A stretch of DNA of 33,013 nt from Candidatus Moranbacteria bacterium GW2011_GWC2_37_8 (GTDB lineage: Bacteria > Patescibacteriota > Minisyncoccia > Moranbacterales > GWC2-37-73): contig LBTS01000015.1 in assembly GCA_000992165.1 (NCBI GenBank), positions 1-33,013 of the forward strand, in the 5' to 3' direction. Below are positions 2,789 to 16,741 of this stretch, one piece after another. The first letter of the stretch is position 1. Each line of letters starts with the position of its first letter. A program made the position numbers and the translations under genes. The notes beneath the pieces are model-generated. The model did no database searches. It saw nothing but the letters and a program-made list of their open reading frames with translations, and was not told where the DNA came from.

Positions 2789-2812
2789 AAAAGCCACCTA
2801 GCAGTGGCTTTT
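2789..2812 (+). terminator. Intrinsic terminator (possibly bidirectional) after the 920-aa ORF
   Basis: AAAAGCCAC-ctagca-GTGGCTTTT perfect 9-bp hairpin 17 nt past the stop codon. Confidence 0.8.
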
Positions 2813-2816
2813 AAAT

Positions 2817-3052
2817 TACACGCAATACATGGTTCTAAAATCACACAGGCATGCGGCTTTGAAAACGTTTTTGCTATCCTGTTTTCCCTGCCTACCGGCA
2901 GGCAGGATTTTCGGCCAATTGATACGAGAGTATCTCTGAGCTTTTGGATAGTGAGTATTTATCCAAAAGCGTGCTCGAAAAAGGAAGCGGGATAGCAAAA
3001 AAACAATATGCACGTCACTAACCTCAATTAACTGAAGCCATGTATTGTGTAT
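2817..3052 (+). repeat. MITE-like structured intergenic element, copy 1
   Basis: TACACGCAATACATGG (2817-2832) versus CCATGTATTGTGTAT (3038-3052) imperfect terminal inverted repeats; inner arms TTTTTGCTATCC.../...GGGATAGCAAAAA; core shared with 16636-16713. Confidence 0.6.
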
Positions 3053-3076
3053 GATTCCTTTTTGCTTTGTTATTAA

Positions 3077-3104
3077 TTGACATTTCTTTCCAAATTGATA
3101 TATT
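3077..3104 (+). promoter_or_regulatory. Sigma70-type promoter for the ncRNA candidate
   Basis: TTGACA (3077-3082), 16-bp spacer, TATATT (3099-3104); predicted start near 3111. Confidence 0.7.
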
Positions 3105-3110
3105 TAAGTC

Positions 3111-3466
3111 GCCACAGAGAGGCAACTTAAGCAATACTGGACCTTAGCGGATTAGATACCCGCGTCAGCGCCCATTAAGTTTTGGAGTAGGAATTTATCC
3201 GTGGATACCAAGACTAGGGACAGCCAAGCTTGCTGCAGATTCTGAAATGCAAAGCGTTTTATATCTCACTGGACTGGGTCTAGGGGATAGGAATTCTGTT
3301 TTTTGAAGAATCTTGACCCTGCACAATTGCGCTACGGAAACGAGCCACATTGCAAGGTGCGCCAACTAAACGAAATTGACTGATGGATTTTCCACGTACG
3401 TGGAGCCAGATGAGGTCAATTTCAGGCTGATTTTTCTTAAAGGGCTACCTCTCTGTGGCCTTTTTA
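3111..3466 (+). ncRNA. Orphan structured RNA of about 350 nt, class not recognised
   Basis: Promoter just upstream; 5' GCCACAGAGAGG (3111-3122) pairs perfectly with CCTCTCTGTGGC (3448-3459) followed by CTTTTTATTTT; internal helices ACTTAA/TTAAGT, GCGG-attagatac-CCGC, GAAATTGAC/GTCAATTTC; no plausible protein. Confidence 0.65.
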
Positions 3467-3560
3467 TTTTGCATACAAAAAATCCACACGCCCAGGACAT
3501 GTGGATTCTCTACTATCTTTAATTATACAACTAAATTAATAAAAAGTCAATACTAACGTC

Positions 3561-3619: not shown

Positions 3620-6109
3620 CTAAAAGGCTGTTTCCTTCGTTGCATTTCTCGCAAATCTAGCCCTCTCCATGATTTCCCTATTCACGATATTGGCATCGCG
3701 ACCATACTTCAAACGGGAAAGTTCTTTAAGATAATTAGCAGCTTCCTGATTTCCCCTGGTTGGAGGATTAAAGTTAACATTAAACGGCTTTGATAATTCC
3801 CCATTGACCAGCACACGAGCAAAACCTCTGTAATTATCTACATTCACCAAGTCGCTAGCAGTGAAAACCGGAGCGAATTGTTTTTCTAAAAATTCGCTGT
3901 CCTCAGGTCCAACACGAAGCGCTACCATTGAGCCCACATTACCAAACACGGCTTTAGAGATGTCCTCTTTAAGCTGCCCGATAAATTGATGGGCAATTGT
4001 TAGGCATAGCCTATATTTCCTAGCTTCAGAAAGAATTTGCGAAATAGAATTCGTAGTAACATTTTGGAATTCATCCAGATACAGATAGAAATCACGCCTT
4101 TCATCTTCAGGCATATCGCTGCGCGAGAGTGCATTCATCAATATCTTTCCCACAATCACCATACCCAGAAGGTGCGCGTTAATTTCTCCGATTTTTCCTT
4201 TTGAAAGTTTCACTAATAAAATTTTTCCTCCGTCCATCACTTCACGAAAATTGATAGTGCTTTTTTGCTGGGCAATGATCGGACGCATCATATCATTAGA
4301 AACGAAGGTTGTAAGCTTCGAAGTGATATATGGAACCATATTTGCAAGTGCTGCTTCCCCACCAGCTTTTTCCGCCTCCTTAATCCAAAAGTCGAGAACG
4401 ACTGGATTCTTGCACTTAGTAAGTTTCATCTTGCGGAAATCCTCATCAGCCAAAACCTTGGAAATTTCCATCAAAGTAGAACCTGACTCCGGATCTTCCA
4501 TGATCAATAACATTGCGTTTCTCACATATTGTTCAAACATAGGTCCACCCGTCGCTTTCAAATCATAGAGTTGATCAAAGATTCCAATCATTTCATTGAT
4601 GACGAAAGTTTTTTGCTCAGGGTGAGCCGGATCATATTCGAGCATATTAAGACCAAACGGTCTTTCCATATCAGAAGGATCAAAAACTATCACATCTTCC
4701 GCGCGAGATTTTGGAACCGCGGTTAATATATCCTCGATAGCATCTCCATGTGGATCAATAAAACAAAATCCCTTTCCCTCTCTAGCATCCTGCTTGGCCA
4801 TCTCCTGCAAAAAGTTAGATTTACCTGTTCCAGTTTGACCGATAGCATACAGATGTCTTCTGCGATCAGCATCAGATAGTTTGATTTCAGTTTTTACGCC
4901 GCGGTAATCATTATAACCCAAAACAATTCCTTCTTTGGGAATATTCAAGGGAGGAGGCGCGGCTCCAGCTTTCAACCATTTTATTTTCGGAGTTTCAGTT
5001 GTTGAAATAGGAAAATGGAAAACGCTGGCAATTTCTTCTGTTGATAAAATAACAGCATGGTCTTCATCGAAATTTCTGAAAATGTAATCAAAAGAAATTT
5101 TCTTTTCCTTTACTCGTTTTTGAACTATGAAATGGTTCACGTCATGATTTTCAAACTGAGCAAAAGCATTTTCCATGTGCCCCAGAATTTCATCAGCCTT
5201 TTGCTGACTTGTCGCCGAAGCAACTAATCGAATATTAACTTTAAAACCAGCCTTTCCGGATTTAGCTTCAATCTTTTTGATCAACTCCTGCTCCTCGGGA
5301 GTCAGTTGCACTGATTCTCGTTGCAGAACCTCACTATTAGGTTTATTTTGCAATACTTGCTGATAAATTCCTTTGCCGATGTCCTTAGCAAGTGATGTGG
5401 AATGAGCATCCTTAAGTTGTTTGCCTTGCTGCATTCGATGGGCAACGCCTTGTCCTTGCTTCCTCCATTCCTTACCCGCAGGCCTAAGAATAAGCTGAAT
5501 AGCAGCGCCTTCTCCTTCGGTTTGCAATTTGCTCAAGGCATTGGAAATTTCAGCCAATGGATCAGTTTCCATGTGTTCATAAGTCAAAATTGGCAAAGCG
5601 TGAGAATGCTTAAGTTTGAGCAATGCTGCAGCAGTAAAACTTCCTGGAGAAAAAATAGTGTAGTCAGAAATTTTTTCCACTGAAGCATGTGGAAAATATG
5701 CATGCACTTGCTTCTCAATACTATCTCGAAATTTTTTGGGTACAGCTAAATAAAATTGGATTTCTTCGTTGCCAGCCGGGTTAGCAATTTCCATGGCAAT
5801 ATACGGTTCACTATATAAAAAATGTCCGATAATTGATTTTTTTTCTTTTATATTAGAAAGTGTTGTCAGAAGTTGTTCCATAGATCCGATCTCTTCTTTC
5901 CAAGCGTCGGCATTGTCATTTTGTCCATTCTTTTCTTTGAATATCTTCGTGACACGCACGACTTCCAAATCCATGTTCATTGAGCGGTTGATTTGTGCGC
6001 GATAATTCAAGAAACTACGCAGCACCAAAAAGGCACCAGTCACAAAAACTATTGCCGAAAAACTCCAAGCAAGCGGAATGAGAAATATATTTAGGTCGAT
6101 AGTATCCAT
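3620..6109 (-). CDS. Type IV secretion VirD4/TraG-like or HerA/VirB4-superfamily ATPase with N-terminal TM segment
   Basis: Walker A 'AIGQTGTGKSNFLQEMA', 'GFCFIDPHGD', Walker B-like 'FYLYLDEFQNVTTNSISQILSEARKYRLCLTIAHQFIGQL'; N-terminal hydrophobic segment. Confidence 0.9.
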   Translation of the reverse strand: MDTIDLNIFLIPLAWSFSAIVFVTGAFLVLRSFLNYRAQINRSMNMDLEVVRVTKIFKEKNGQNDNADAWKEEIGSMEQLLTTLSNIKEKKSIIGHFLYSEPYIAMEIANPAGNEEIQFYLAVPKKFRDSIEKQVHAYFPHASVEKISDYTIFSPGSFTAAALLKLKHSHALPILTYEHMETDPLAEISNALSKLQTEGEGAAIQLILRPAGKEWRKQGQGVAHRMQQGKQLKDAHSTSLAKDIGKGIYQQVLQNKPNSEVLQRESVQLTPEEQELIKKIEAKSGKAGFKVNIRLVASATSQQKADEILGHMENAFAQFENHDVNHFIVQKRVKEKKISFDYIFRNFDEDHAVILSTEEIASVFHFPISTTETPKIKWLKAGAAPPPLNIPKEGIVLGYNDYRGVKTEIKLSDADRRRHLYAIGQTGTGKSNFLQEMAKQDAREGKGFCFIDPHGDAIEDILTAVPKSRAEDVIVFDPSDMERPFGLNMLEYDPAHPEQKTFVINEMIGIFDQLYDLKATGGPMFEQYVRNAMLLIMEDPESGSTLMEISKVLADEDFRKMKLTKCKNPVVLDFWIKEAEKAGGEAALANMVPYITSKLTTFVSNDMMRPIIAQQKSTINFREVMDGGKILLVKLSKGKIGEINAHLLGMVIVGKILMNALSRSDMPEDERRDFYLYLDEFQNVTTNSISQILSEARKYRLCLTIAHQFIGQLKEDISKAVFGNVGSMVALRVGPEDSEFLEKQFAPVFTASDLVNVDNYRGFARVLVNGELSKPFNVNFNPPTRGNQEAANYLKELSRLKYGRDANIVNREIMERARFARNATKETAF

Positions 6110-7387: not shown

Positions 7388-10180
7388 TTACGCAGCCAAT
7401 TTATATTCGCCAGATCTTCGCGCAAGAGTCATTATCCTATATGACCAGACTTTGAAATTTTCTGCTGGTTTCGGTTTGGTCACGTCCGAATTCGCATAAC
7501 CAATGATAAGATTCTTAGCTTTAGTAGAGAGTCCTTTTAAGCTATTATCAGGATCATTCAAAGCCTCGCGCACATTCATTCCTCCGAATTTCAAAATATT
7601 TGATTTTTTATTATCAAAGAAATCTCTTCCAATTTTGCTGAATGTCGCATTGTCTGGCATATCCAAAAGAGCTCGCATATGCTCCTGCGAATGTTTCATA
7701 ACTTCTCCCAATCTTCCAACCTCGTATGAAGGACCCCAATTGTATATATCACTATTAGCTGCCTTGGAGAGCGTATTAGCATATCCAAGATTTTCTCTAA
7801 AGTTTGGACTATTCGGATCAAGTTTCAGCAATTCACCACTCGCAACTGAACTAGCGATAGAATGTTTCTCGCTTTGAGCTGCAAGTTCAACTTTCTCGGC
7901 ATCGATAACTTCCTTATTCCATTGCTTATAAGTTTCATTATCAGTAGCTGCAACAGGTATCTTCAACCCTGCAGACTTGGTAGTAATCTTATCAACACTA
8001 GCGACATGTTTGGCAGCATGATGATGCGATGAATCATCAACAAATTTTATATCTTTGAATTCCATTTTTGGATGACCTTCATCATTCCATTTTATTTCAT
8101 AAGTTGTTCCTGGATGAATTCTGCTTAATTTAGCATAAGCTTGATCATATGTCATTCCATGTGTATTAGCATATTCTTTTGCTGCATCATGAAAAGTAAC
8201 CTCGGCAATATCACCAGCTTCAGCTTTATCAATACCATCATGACTTGTGATATGCTCCTTGAGACTCTTAATGAAACTATCATGTCGCATGCGTCCATGA
8301 GATCCACTTTCCGGCTGCTTGATTTCAACTGTTTCAACCTTAATCGAAGCATCTACTACGGGGGATCCAGCCTTTATTGATTCAACAGTAGATTTTTTCA
8401 ACCCCTCCGTTGATTTTGCGCCAACTTCATTCGCATGACCCGACTGTTCCGTAGTATTTACACCTCCATCTATTGGTGTATTTAGTTCTTTGGCGGTATT
8501 TGAAGTTTCGGGTATACCATTGCCAGTTTCCGTACTATGAAAATTTCCATCCTTTAGACGTTCCAGCTGTTCCAGGGAAGTTACGTTATTTGAATTTCCT
8601 ACTTTAAATCCTATACTTCTCTTATTAATATTATTAAAATCAATTGGCTTTTCTTCGACAACAGCTGTCGGAGTGGACTTTGTTGCCGTTTCTTTAGGTA
8701 ATTCTTGAGATGTATGTCCAAAAAAGTAATCCTTAACGCTATGATATGCGCCAGAAGTCAATTTTCCTACCCATGTGTCACCTAATTGTTCACCAGTAAA
8801 GCGAAGAACATCACTCGCCAAACCCGACCCAAGAAAAACTCCCACCACTGCTCCTTTTGCAAAATGTTTAAAATCCTTATTTCTGATTTCATTTATATAT
8901 TTACCCTCATCCCTAATTGCAATATCCCAGGTATTGCTTCTTAGGAGCTCGAATTTCTCCTCTTCGCTCATTTTTTCAATAGCTTTTTGAAATTGCATTT
9001 TTCTTTTTTCAATCTCATCTTTTCTATTGTTCTTATCTTTTGTTGCTGAACTTTCAGCAACAGCAAAGCCCGTCAATGAAGCCATTATCATTCTCCTGGC
9101 AAGCATAGTGCCAGTAATAGCACCAGCTGAAGCCACACCTACAGTTGCTGCTGCTGCGCCAACATATGCCAATCCAGCAAAAGCTGCTGCGACTCCAAGT
9201 TTTTTAGTCAAACTCCAAGACCTGTAATCCTTGGAGAATTCAACCACACCTTTTCTGAATATCTTCCCATCAAGATGCTCAGATCTGACATCATCATGCA
9301 TTTCAAGAACCTTCAGCTGTTGTTCAGCTAAAAATGATCCGTAGATATCAGCAATTTCAGCGTCGCTTGCATTTCGAAGTTTTGCTTCCGCAATTTGCGC
9401 GTCGCGAAGTTTCAGCAAGCTGTTATCATAGTATGCCCTATAGGCAGCCACATCCGCATCACTTTCAAGTGATTTCCTCTGTTCCCTGGTATAGATACTG
9501 GAATCAGTATTAAAATTAGCATCAAAATATTTCGCTCTATTTTCTTGGAGATCACTCTTGAAGGTACTTTCCGACCAAAAATATTCCCTGACTCTTTTCA
9601 GCGCGGTGTTTTTTTGATAATCAACCTCCAAATATTCTTTTCTGGCTTCCTCAACTTCCTTTTGCAAAGTTATTATTTCTTCTTGAGCTTTCAAAAGTTC
9701 TGCACTAATTGGCTTGTTGATACTTATTTCAGGATCAACTTCTGCATTTTCATCATTTAAGCGTTCTCGCTCTTTTTTACTTATCAAATAATCAACATGC
9801 CTATCCAATATTCTATTAATTTCATTTATTTCCTGATAAACTTCCGCCAAATCTTCCTTATTAAGCCCATTGAAATCAAATTCGTCGCTGCTTAGATAAA
9901 AATCGTAAATATTAAATCCAGGTGCATCAATATTTTTTTCTATTGCCTCCTCAGCAGCCGCTTGCCTCAAATCAATATCATGGAAAATACGTTCTTTTAT
10001 TTTCCGTGATTCAATTTCCATCCCACCATCTTTTTCTTCGGGTTCAACCGTCGCTAAAGATACTACTGGTTTTTCTTCTTCAATATCAACAGGAACGATT
10101 TTATTGAATCGTCCTTTAGCATTTTGCAATGCTTCTTTTCTGTTTTCATCAGCTATTTTAAGAATATCTCCTGACTCCAT
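7388..10180 (-). CDS. Large membrane coiled-coil protein of unknown function
   Basis: 930-aa ORF; charged helical N-terminus, Gly/Ala-rich TM hairpin 'KKLGVAAAFAGLAYVGAAAATVGVASAGAITGTML', long low-complexity C-terminal half. Confidence 0.85.
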   Translation of the reverse strand: MESGDILKIADENRKEALQNAKGRFNKIVPVDIEEEKPVVSLATVEPEEKDGGMEIESRKIKERIFHDIDLRQAAAEEAIEKNIDAPGFNIYDFYLSSDEFDFNGLNKEDLAEVYQEINEINRILDRHVDYLISKKERERLNDENAEVDPEISINKPISAELLKAQEEIITLQKEVEEARKEYLEVDYQKNTALKRVREYFWSESTFKSDLQENRAKYFDANFNTDSSIYTREQRKSLESDADVAAYRAYYDNSLLKLRDAQIAEAKLRNASDAEIADIYGSFLAEQQLKVLEMHDDVRSEHLDGKIFRKGVVEFSKDYRSWSLTKKLGVAAAFAGLAYVGAAAATVGVASAGAITGTMLARRMIMASLTGFAVAESSATKDKNNRKDEIEKRKMQFQKAIEKMSEEEKFELLRSNTWDIAIRDEGKYINEIRNKDFKHFAKGAVVGVFLGSGLASDVLRFTGEQLGDTWVGKLTSGAYHSVKDYFFGHTSQELPKETATKSTPTAVVEEKPIDFNNINKRSIGFKVGNSNNVTSLEQLERLKDGNFHSTETGNGIPETSNTAKELNTPIDGGVNTTEQSGHANEVGAKSTEGLKKSTVESIKAGSPVVDASIKVETVEIKQPESGSHGRMRHDSFIKSLKEHITSHDGIDKAEAGDIAEVTFHDAAKEYANTHGMTYDQAYAKLSRIHPGTTYEIKWNDEGHPKMEFKDIKFVDDSSHHHAAKHVASVDKITTKSAGLKIPVAATDNETYKQWNKEVIDAEKVELAAQSEKHSIASSVASGELLKLDPNSPNFRENLGYANTLSKAANSDIYNWGPSYEVGRLGEVMKHSQEHMRALLDMPDNATFSKIGRDFFDNKKSNILKFGGMNVREALNDPDNSLKGLSTKAKNLIIGYANSDVTKPKPAENFKVWSYRIMTLARRSGEYKLAA

Positions 10181-10233
10181 GTCTTTAACTTGATTTTATT
10201 TTTGCAAATTATCTAAACTATCTAATTTCAATT

Positions 10234-11805
10234 TCAATTATGCTTTTCGATTTTAACAGGTTCAGATATAGGAATCTCCTTTAGGATATCAGCAATGAAA
10301 GCTTCTTTTCGAATGTCAGCTACAATTTTTTCCTGTTCAATTAATTCATCCAAAAAAGCAACGACTTCACCTTCAATAAAACTTTCCTGATATTCACTTC
10401 TTCTCTTTCCCCAGTTAGCATTTCCTTTTAATTTTTCCGCCAAACCATTTCTAAATTCGCTAGCCATTTCCAAAGCTGTTTTGAAATTTTCTTTTTCATT
10501 TTTAAGCTCCTGCTCCAATTCAACATCCTGAATAACTTCTTCGGGCGCATTCGACTGCGGTGATGACGGCAAAATAATATGGGCTCTTTCTTTTAATACT
10601 AATTCTTTTGCATCATCCAATAAATTCTTAATTTCTTGTCTATTTTTTTCAAGCAATAAATACAACTTCTTTTTATCTTCATTTGGATCTTCAATGCGCT
10701 TGGAAAGTTCTTGAAATTCCTTAACAATCGGATTGAAAAGACTTTCGCGAAGCGTGATTGCATCCATCTTATCCTCATCAGTGACAGCATGAGCCTCAAT
10801 TTCCAAAATCACATCAGTAAGCAATTCGCCTTTTTCTCGGCATTCAGCCAAAATAGTGTCGAAATCAATAGCACTTTCTTTGCTTGGCTCGGCTGATTTT
10901 ATTACCTCCTCTTGAGCAACTGATACTGGCGTGGCAGTATCCTTTTTTTCTGGCATTTCCGTATCATCAATAATTATCTTTTCTTCTCCCGCTTGGCTAT
11001 TGCTGATATTTAGCGGTATTGAAACTTCATCTATAATAAGTTTTTCCATTACCGAATTGTGAACCAAAACAGAAATCTCATCTTGTAAATCCTGTTGCAA
11101 GCGTGAATCTAATTTATCATGACGACGATTCAGAAAATCATTTTCTGCTGAACTTATTTTTCTCAAATCTTCCAATATACTATCCGTCAATACAAACTTC
11201 GTATTAGGATCAATCTCCTTAATATTGTTTTGATATATTGACCCTTTTTCAATTGCTCTTTTCAATGCGTCAATCTCTGCGTCTACCTGCCTAAATACAA
11301 AAGCCTGAAACATCAACTTGTTCAAATCTTCAACCGATAATTCACCAATCTTCGCTTCAATTTTTCTTACATAAGCATCGTCCAATACTACATCCTCACC
11401 TTTTCTCAACGTTTCCATGATATCAACCAAAATAAAATCATCTTCGATAATGTTCTTTCCAACCACGGAAGCGATATAAAAAAGCTCTGAATTCAGCAGG
11501 GTTTTATTTTTTATATTAGGCACTGCCAATTCTTCAACGCGCTTTTTCAATTCAACCGCCAATGCATCATTTAAAATTTTCTTTGCTTTTTTCTTTAATT
11601 CAACTTCTTGTTCTAGTTTTGACTCCGTAGAATTTTCAACATCACTTCTTTTTACTTTACTTTTTTTTCCATTATTTTCAATTCTAAAAACATCTTTTTC
11701 GTCATCATCATGTTCTTCTTTTTTATCTATCTTATCAAAAAACCTCCTGCGATTATTCATCGCAGTTGCCCTTAATCCTAATTTTCCTTCTTCAAACTCA
11801 GGCAT
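10234..11805 (-). CDS. Glu/Lys-rich coiled-coil protein of unknown function
   Basis: 523-aa ORF, first gene of the minus-strand cluster; no recognised catalytic motif. Confidence 0.8.
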   Translation of the reverse strand: MPEFEEGKLGLRATAMNNRRRFFDKIDKKEEHDDDEKDVFRIENNGKKSKVKRSDVENSTESKLEQEVELKKKAKKILNDALAVELKKRVEELAVPNIKNKTLLNSELFYIASVVGKNIIEDDFILVDIMETLRKGEDVVLDDAYVRKIEAKIGELSVEDLNKLMFQAFVFRQVDAEIDALKRAIEKGSIYQNNIKEIDPNTKFVLTDSILEDLRKISSAENDFLNRRHDKLDSRLQQDLQDEISVLVHNSVMEKLIIDEVSIPLNISNSQAGEEKIIIDDTEMPEKKDTATPVSVAQEEVIKSAEPSKESAIDFDTILAECREKGELLTDVILEIEAHAVTDEDKMDAITLRESLFNPIVKEFQELSKRIEDPNEDKKKLYLLLEKNRQEIKNLLDDAKELVLKERAHIILPSSPQSNAPEEVIQDVELEQELKNEKENFKTALEMASEFRNGLAEKLKGNANWGKRRSEYQESFIEGEVVAFLDELIEQEKIVADIRKEAFIADILKEIPISEPVKIEKHN

Positions 11806-16627: not shown

Positions 16628-16741
16628 TATTTTGTTTTTCGGCCAATTGATACGAGAGTATCTCTGAGCTTTTGGATAGTGAGTATTTTATCCAAAAGCG
16701 TGCTCGAAAAAGGATTTAACACAGCCATGTATTGCGCGTGA
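16628..16741 (+). repeat. Structured intergenic element, copy 2 (shortened)
   Basis: 16636-16713 nearly identical to 2908-2984 (CGGCCAATTGATACGAGAGTATCTCTGAGCTTTTGGATAGTGAGTATTT(T)ATCCAAAAGCGTGCTCGAAAAAGGA); ends with CCATGTATTGCGCGTGA matching the copy-1 terminus. Confidence 0.75.

Follow-up and report, generated by a model that had tools for sequence, protein, structure and literature searches.

Imitation of ribosomal RNA by other RNAs is known from the cis-acting leaders of ribosomal protein mRNAs (review by Meyer 2018, cited in PMC8058203). Small RNAs that act as decoys or sequester proteins are also known, GlmY and 6S RNA among them (PMC8058203), and the rRNA genes of Patescibacteria often carry insertions, either insertion sequences or introns (PMC11270868). 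In the literature searched, made up largely of papers outside subscription journals, we found no description of a free-standing small RNA gene that resembles 16S rRNA.

The window analysed here, 33,013 nucleotides long, is contig C15 of a Patescibacteria genome of 826 kb. In this assembly (G000), which is 80% complete, no 16S gene, tmRNA or rpoB start was found. The window contains an RNA gene, here named W, between two convergent genes: a 920-aa ORF (9-2771, + strand) with no Pfam match, and a TraG/TrwB-like ATPase gene (3620-6109, - strand) that was present in 57 of the 57 relatives searched. Adjoining the ATPase gene, at 7388-11805, are two large ORFs (930 and 523 aa), also with no Pfam match. 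W had been predicted to be a structured, free-standing RNA gene that has a promoter, a closing helix and a terminator of its own (Table 1), and this description is supported by homologues and by compensatory changes. Absent from that prediction were the 16S-like interior of W, with its exact 790-loop hairpin, and a homologue, T, that matches the bacterial SSU model. The anatomy and conservation of W, T and a second intact homologue, S, support a genuine small RNA gene family.

Table 1. Coordinates of the features of W in the window
Feature	Position	Strand	Evidence
sigma70-type promoter TTGACA-16-TATATT (TTGACA 3077-3082, 16-nt spacer, TATATT 3099-3104)	3077-3104	+	11/12 consensus matches
closing helix, 5' arm GCCACAGAGAGG	3111-3122	+	pairing, fold; kept in S and T
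closing helix, 3' arm CCTCTCTGTGGC	3448-3459	+	perfect complement of the 5' arm
helix-24-like domain: outer 7-bp helix, inner helix, apical hairpin	3124-3181	+	predicted folds
GCGGAUUAGAUACCCGCGU, putative mimic of the 16S 790-loop hairpin (apical h24)	3147-3165	+	GCGGATTAGATACC identical in S
stretch aligning to family 16S consensus ~882-969, collinear with the 790 segment	3335-3425	+	weak
GCGCCAACTA, common to W and S; T has GCCGTAACTA	3359-3368	+	sequence comparison
two-storey hairpin GAAAUUGAC/GUCAAUUUC	3372-3423	+	fold, W z -2.7
intrinsic terminator hairpin AAAGGGCUAC-CUCUCU-GUGGCCUUUU, then T-rich tail	3439-3464	+	excludes the closing helix

The promoter of W had been predicted together with a transcription start at about 3111, and both boxes lie where they had been placed. 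The 12-nt perfect complementarity between the two arms, followed by a T-run, was likewise found as claimed, CTTTTTATTTT standing directly after the 3' arm, and so was every internal helix that had been named, including ACTTAA/TTAAGT (3125-3130/3175-3180) and GAAATTGAC/GTCAATTTC (3372-3380/3415-3423). The predicted fold of 3108-3470 has an energy of -116.2 kcal/mol (z -3.6, with 0 of 100 shuffles equally stable), and the closing-helix pairs have probabilities of 0.93-1.0 in the fold. As the interior folded alone has a z of only -1.3, the fold signal comes mostly from the closing helix. Perfect 12-bp inverted repeats within 450 nt that carry a T-rich tail were counted 23 times among 100 windows shuffled by dinucleotide (one strand), and at 0.23 per strand per shuffled window the closing helix of W alone is not beyond chance; it is counted as real because it is conserved in S and T. 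The original prediction had also suggested that this helix may serve as the terminator stem. That holds for the 3' arm, which is shared with the terminator, but the local hairpin excludes the closing helix, and the two are mutually exclusive structures in which the terminator loop CUCUCY pairs with the 5' arm once the closing helix forms.

A search for homologues yielded, besides W, the two intact members and one remnant, R, all within one family of Ca. Moraniibacteriota (Patescibacteria). S was found by reading the spacer adjoining the ATPase gene in relatives; it belongs to another genus of the family (G017; LBTZ01000001, Parcubacteria GW2011_GWD2_38_11), occupies the same locus as W and has the layout CCACGGAGAGG...GGCGGATTAGATACCTGC...GCGCCAACTA...CCTCTCCGTGGC-T7. 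BLAST of S led to T, which lies between a 112-aa gene and rpoB (G015; JAQTLF010000037, Moraniibacteriota STA_10), and to R, at the ATPase locus of G009 (JAAXUC010000003), which comprises the 3' arm and the T-run only. At that locus (L132, L049) the arm and T-run stand after the upstream gene; R is apparently what a deletion has left, and it apparently still acts as a terminator. In the same-genus genome G004 the spacer that holds T is without the RNA. An assembly chimera as the origin of T was ruled out, the flanking genes (p97, p112, rpoB) being syntenic in G004 and others.

The predicted housekeeping role is contradicted by this distribution, with intact copies in 3 of the 19 family genomes, one deletion remnant and two different loci. 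Among the genomes compared, the RNA is sporadic in the family, hence not housekeeping, and its absence from most of the family indicates that it is not essential. At the sensitivity applied, the RNA was missing from the remaining family members searched. With W as BLAST query, 142 relatives gave nothing credible, a 25-nt match in G059 lying antisense within an Lnt-like protein gene and being taken as chance, and T, searched in 381 relatives, found only itself. When 133 genomes were searched for the 3' arm, allowing two mismatches, many sites were returned, with no new complementary 5' arm among the sites inspected. A scan of the genome contig collection recovered S, T, R and a single unrelated site in Acidiferrales, and nothing else; neither an IMG/VR scan for further members nor a plasmid search with W produced any.

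Between the ATPase gene and the ORF of the 920-aa type, the spacer (L010-L014) is variable: in close relatives it contains small ORFs, repeats, the RNA or hardly anything. In the window, a palindromic multicopy repeat occupies 2790-3075, directly upstream of W, and occurs again at 16636-16714; it has 23 matches in its own genome and 18-19 in two relatives of the same family, and includes inverted repeats at 2814-2832/3038-3056 and 2868-2884/2985-3001. The terminator of the upstream ORF, AAAAGCCACCTAGCAGTGGCTTTT (2787-2812), is like the 3' end of S at 19 of 22 positions and may be a remnant similar to R of G009.

The promoters of S (TTGACT-17-TATATT) and T (TTGACA-15-TATATT) stand at a distance similar to that in W, and the closing helix has 12 pairs in W, 13 in S and 14 in T, with a T-run in all three. 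Across the three members this helix carries two two-sided changes and one one-sided change; the compensatory changes are A-U in W against G-C in S and T, and an outer G-C in W against A-U in T. With three sequences only, the same level of covariation was reached in 90 of 500 shuffles. The equivalents of the terminator are AAGCCAC-CUCUCC-GUGGCUU in S and AAAACCAC-CUCUCC-GUGGUUUU in T and R, and, as read from the sequences, the stems differ by G-C to A-U on both sides. The interiors of W and S are alike beyond shuffles (0/500) along most of their length, as are those of S and T (0/500); W and T gave no direct match. In the place of the two-storey hairpin of W, S has a candidate hairpin of different sequence that is not significant (z -0.1).

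The 790 loop is among the most conserved loops of ribosomal RNA. Its 16S hairpin at the tip of helix 24, GCGGAUUAGAUACCYGC, is the best-conserved element of W and S; the 14-nt motif GCGGATTAGATACC is the longest identity between them, and the 17-mer of W recurs without a mismatch as the 790-loop hairpin in genuine 16S genes of the same class. When the window was scanned on both strands with an h24 covariance model built from 17 real 16S genes, the best match over the 33 kb was 3147-3165 with an E of 0.0011, the next having an E of 0.6. A 16S profile of the h24 region placed W at 3141-3195, with 0 of 1000 shuffles equally good. For S alone the model gave an E of 0.45, which is background, and the profile returned the 14-nt motif only. 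Both domains and 16S h24 have a common topology of outer helix, internal loop, inner pairs, 4-bp tip and 9-nt loop, that of S being built with a different stem sequence. GCGGATTAGATACC is a 16S surface element conserved above background between W and S; T is without the 790 hairpin. Farther along W, the alignment to ~882-969 was equalled by 13 of 500 and 5 of 500 shuffles and was not significant by profile; this collinear similarity is retained as no more than weak. Elsewhere in the class, pattern matches to the 790 hairpin proved to be genuine 16S genes rather than homologues, and the 15 IMG/VR matches to the 17-mer of W fall mostly within long ORFs, have no SSU profile match and look like chance.

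T matches RF00177 at positions 1041-1198 (h34-h40) over 158 positions with 85-91 bits (E 7e-25 at 85 bits), and in blastn is 75-77% identical to proteobacterial and actinobacterial 16S. Smith-Waterman scores were 125-140 against seven non-Patescibacteria 16S and at most 58 against any Patescibacteria 16S tested, its own genome included. Because the non-Patescibacteria 16S score far higher, the segment was not copied from the genome's own rRNA, and that origin was ruled out; by these similarities, T carries a fragment of 16S from another bacterium, now diverged. Of 49 SSU pairs it preserves 42-43, where about 31 would be expected with scattered substitutions (0 of 2000 randomisations), and it has 7-10 two-sided changes against the nearest references, compensated changes that may predate capture and be partly normal 16S variation. 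Since near-universal stretches are altered (GACGUCA to GACUUCA, CAACGAGCGCAACCC to UUAGCGAGCACAAUUCC), T is not a working 16S. S has in common with T the h34 segment TATGCGCAAGTCG..AGCTGTCGTCA as well as AGGCCACTGCCC, so a helix-34 element is common to these two members; in W nothing h34-like reached significance. A permuted order of the 16S segments of S need not be assumed if GCGCCAACTA is not the 900 region.

As 16S surface elements occur in all three members, imitation of the 30S subunit is supported as their theme. We tentatively propose, as a possibility that falls somewhat short of probable, that W, S and T are a trans-acting small RNA, derived at least partly from 16S, that imitates pieces of the 30S subunit and titrates a 30S ligand; their expression, stability and ligand titration are inferred. 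Transcription would start at about 3111 and stop at about 3470 at the terminator hairpin. This hairpin would probably form first, and after release the 5' arm would pair with the 3' arm, of which the terminator loop CUCUCU is a part. The pairing would close the RNA into a compact, stable domain displaying the helix-24/790-loop hairpin (W, S) and helix 34 or an h34-h40 head element (S, T), a surface that could titrate an initiation, assembly or modification factor, one of the ribosomal proteins, or else a drug or toxin that targets the ribosome. Contacts of the 790 loop include IF3, KsgA, S11 and drugs such as kasugamycin and edeine; those of h34 include S3, S5, spectinomycin and tetracycline. 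Which surface is mimicked depends on the member, T having no 790 hairpin. In E. coli 16S, G1193A leads to spectinomycin resistance (PMC5882664), and the equivalent of G1193 in T is U, which weakens the case for a spectinomycin decoy.

The sporadic presence of the RNA at two loci, and the same spacer standing empty in a same-genus genome, would also suit an rRNA-derived relic that is mobile or decaying. In this view a piece of 16S became enclosed by a promoter and a terminator, spreads or moves occasionally and serves no cellular function. The bare 3' remnant in G009, the foreign 16S type of T and the position of W directly after a multicopy repeat are all in its favour. However, promoter, closing helix and terminator are intact across genera despite turnover of the interior, the 14-nt 790 motif and, in T, the SSU pairing have been kept, and neither a mobility gene nor a terminal repeat belonging to the RNA was seen; we consider a relic rather unlikely.

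That the 16S similarity of W is weak beyond the 790 hairpin, that S alone yields the 14-nt motif only and that Rfam finds nothing in W or S could also mean that this is an ordinary regulatory or protein-binding sRNA, whose 790-like hairpin arose by convergence or coincidence, the interior of T being a secondary 16S capture. The 790 motif is, however, the best-conserved part shared by W and S, and the h34 segment recurs in S, so that the 16S-like part is not private to T. This explanation seems to us unlikely.

The original prediction that W belongs to none of the known classes (RNase P, tmRNA, SRP, 6S, introns) is borne out by Rfam (15), in which no family, including SRP, 6S and group I and II introns, reached its gathering score over the 33-kb window. 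Over 3050-3500 there was no family match and nothing meaningful at E<=10, and S likewise matched no family. The bacterial SSU model RF00177 matched T only, with nothing in W at E<=10 and nothing in S, and the ~350 nt of W and S and ~250 nt of T are short of a full-length 16S, the real 16S genes of the family lying elsewhere. RNase P (RF00010) is absent from the W locus, the genome's own copy being at C29:13736-14091 (127.9 bits), and for tmRNA (RF00023) the locus has no tRNA-like domain or tag frame. Its place between convergent genes and its terminal terminator set W apart from a ribosomal protein leader. A divergent housekeeping RNA (RNase P, tmRNA, SRP, 6S) or intron is very improbable, for although size, promoter and closing helix fit and the 80%-complete assembly yielded no tmRNA, RNase P lies on a different contig, neither W nor S has an Rfam match, the locus has no tRNA-like domain, and the RNA is absent from most relatives.

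The preferred reading, a trans-acting imitator of the 30S subunit, has a more specific form that is speculative and on balance doubtful. Here the RNAs would be a class of mini-16S decoys, evolved from rRNA, that shield or tune ribosomes, the 790-loop and helix-34 surfaces being offered to factors, drugs or toxins, the source of T perhaps being the non-Patescibacteria 16S of a host or neighbour. If true, a small RNA gene evolved from 16S in so reduced a genome would mean that parts of the ribosome are reused as a regulator or decoy. A further caution is that partial SSU matches in Patescibacteria bins are not necessarily contamination or broken rRNA genes.

Compared with bacterial SSU rRNA (RF00177), the RNAs are alike in the 790-loop hairpin (W, S) and the paired h34-h40 (T), but they are free-standing genes with a predicted transcript of 250-350 nt, each having a promoter and a terminator to itself; RF00177 has no match in W or S, and T is without near-universal bases. 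The r-protein leaders (Meyer 2018, cited in PMC8058203) are RNAs outside the ribosome that imitate an rRNA surface for a ribosomal ligand, and the same is proposed for W. In contrast to those cis-acting operon leaders, W is a separate gene between convergent non-ribosomal genes. With GlmY and 6S RNA (PMC8058203) the proposed shared logic is to mimic a natural substrate and titrate its binder, except that here the 30S subunit would be mimicked and there is no sequence relation. The insertions in Patescibacteria rRNA genes (PMC11270868) concern the same bacteria and rRNA-linked mobile sequence; whereas those insertions interrupt rRNA genes, W, S and T are rRNA-like sequence outside them.
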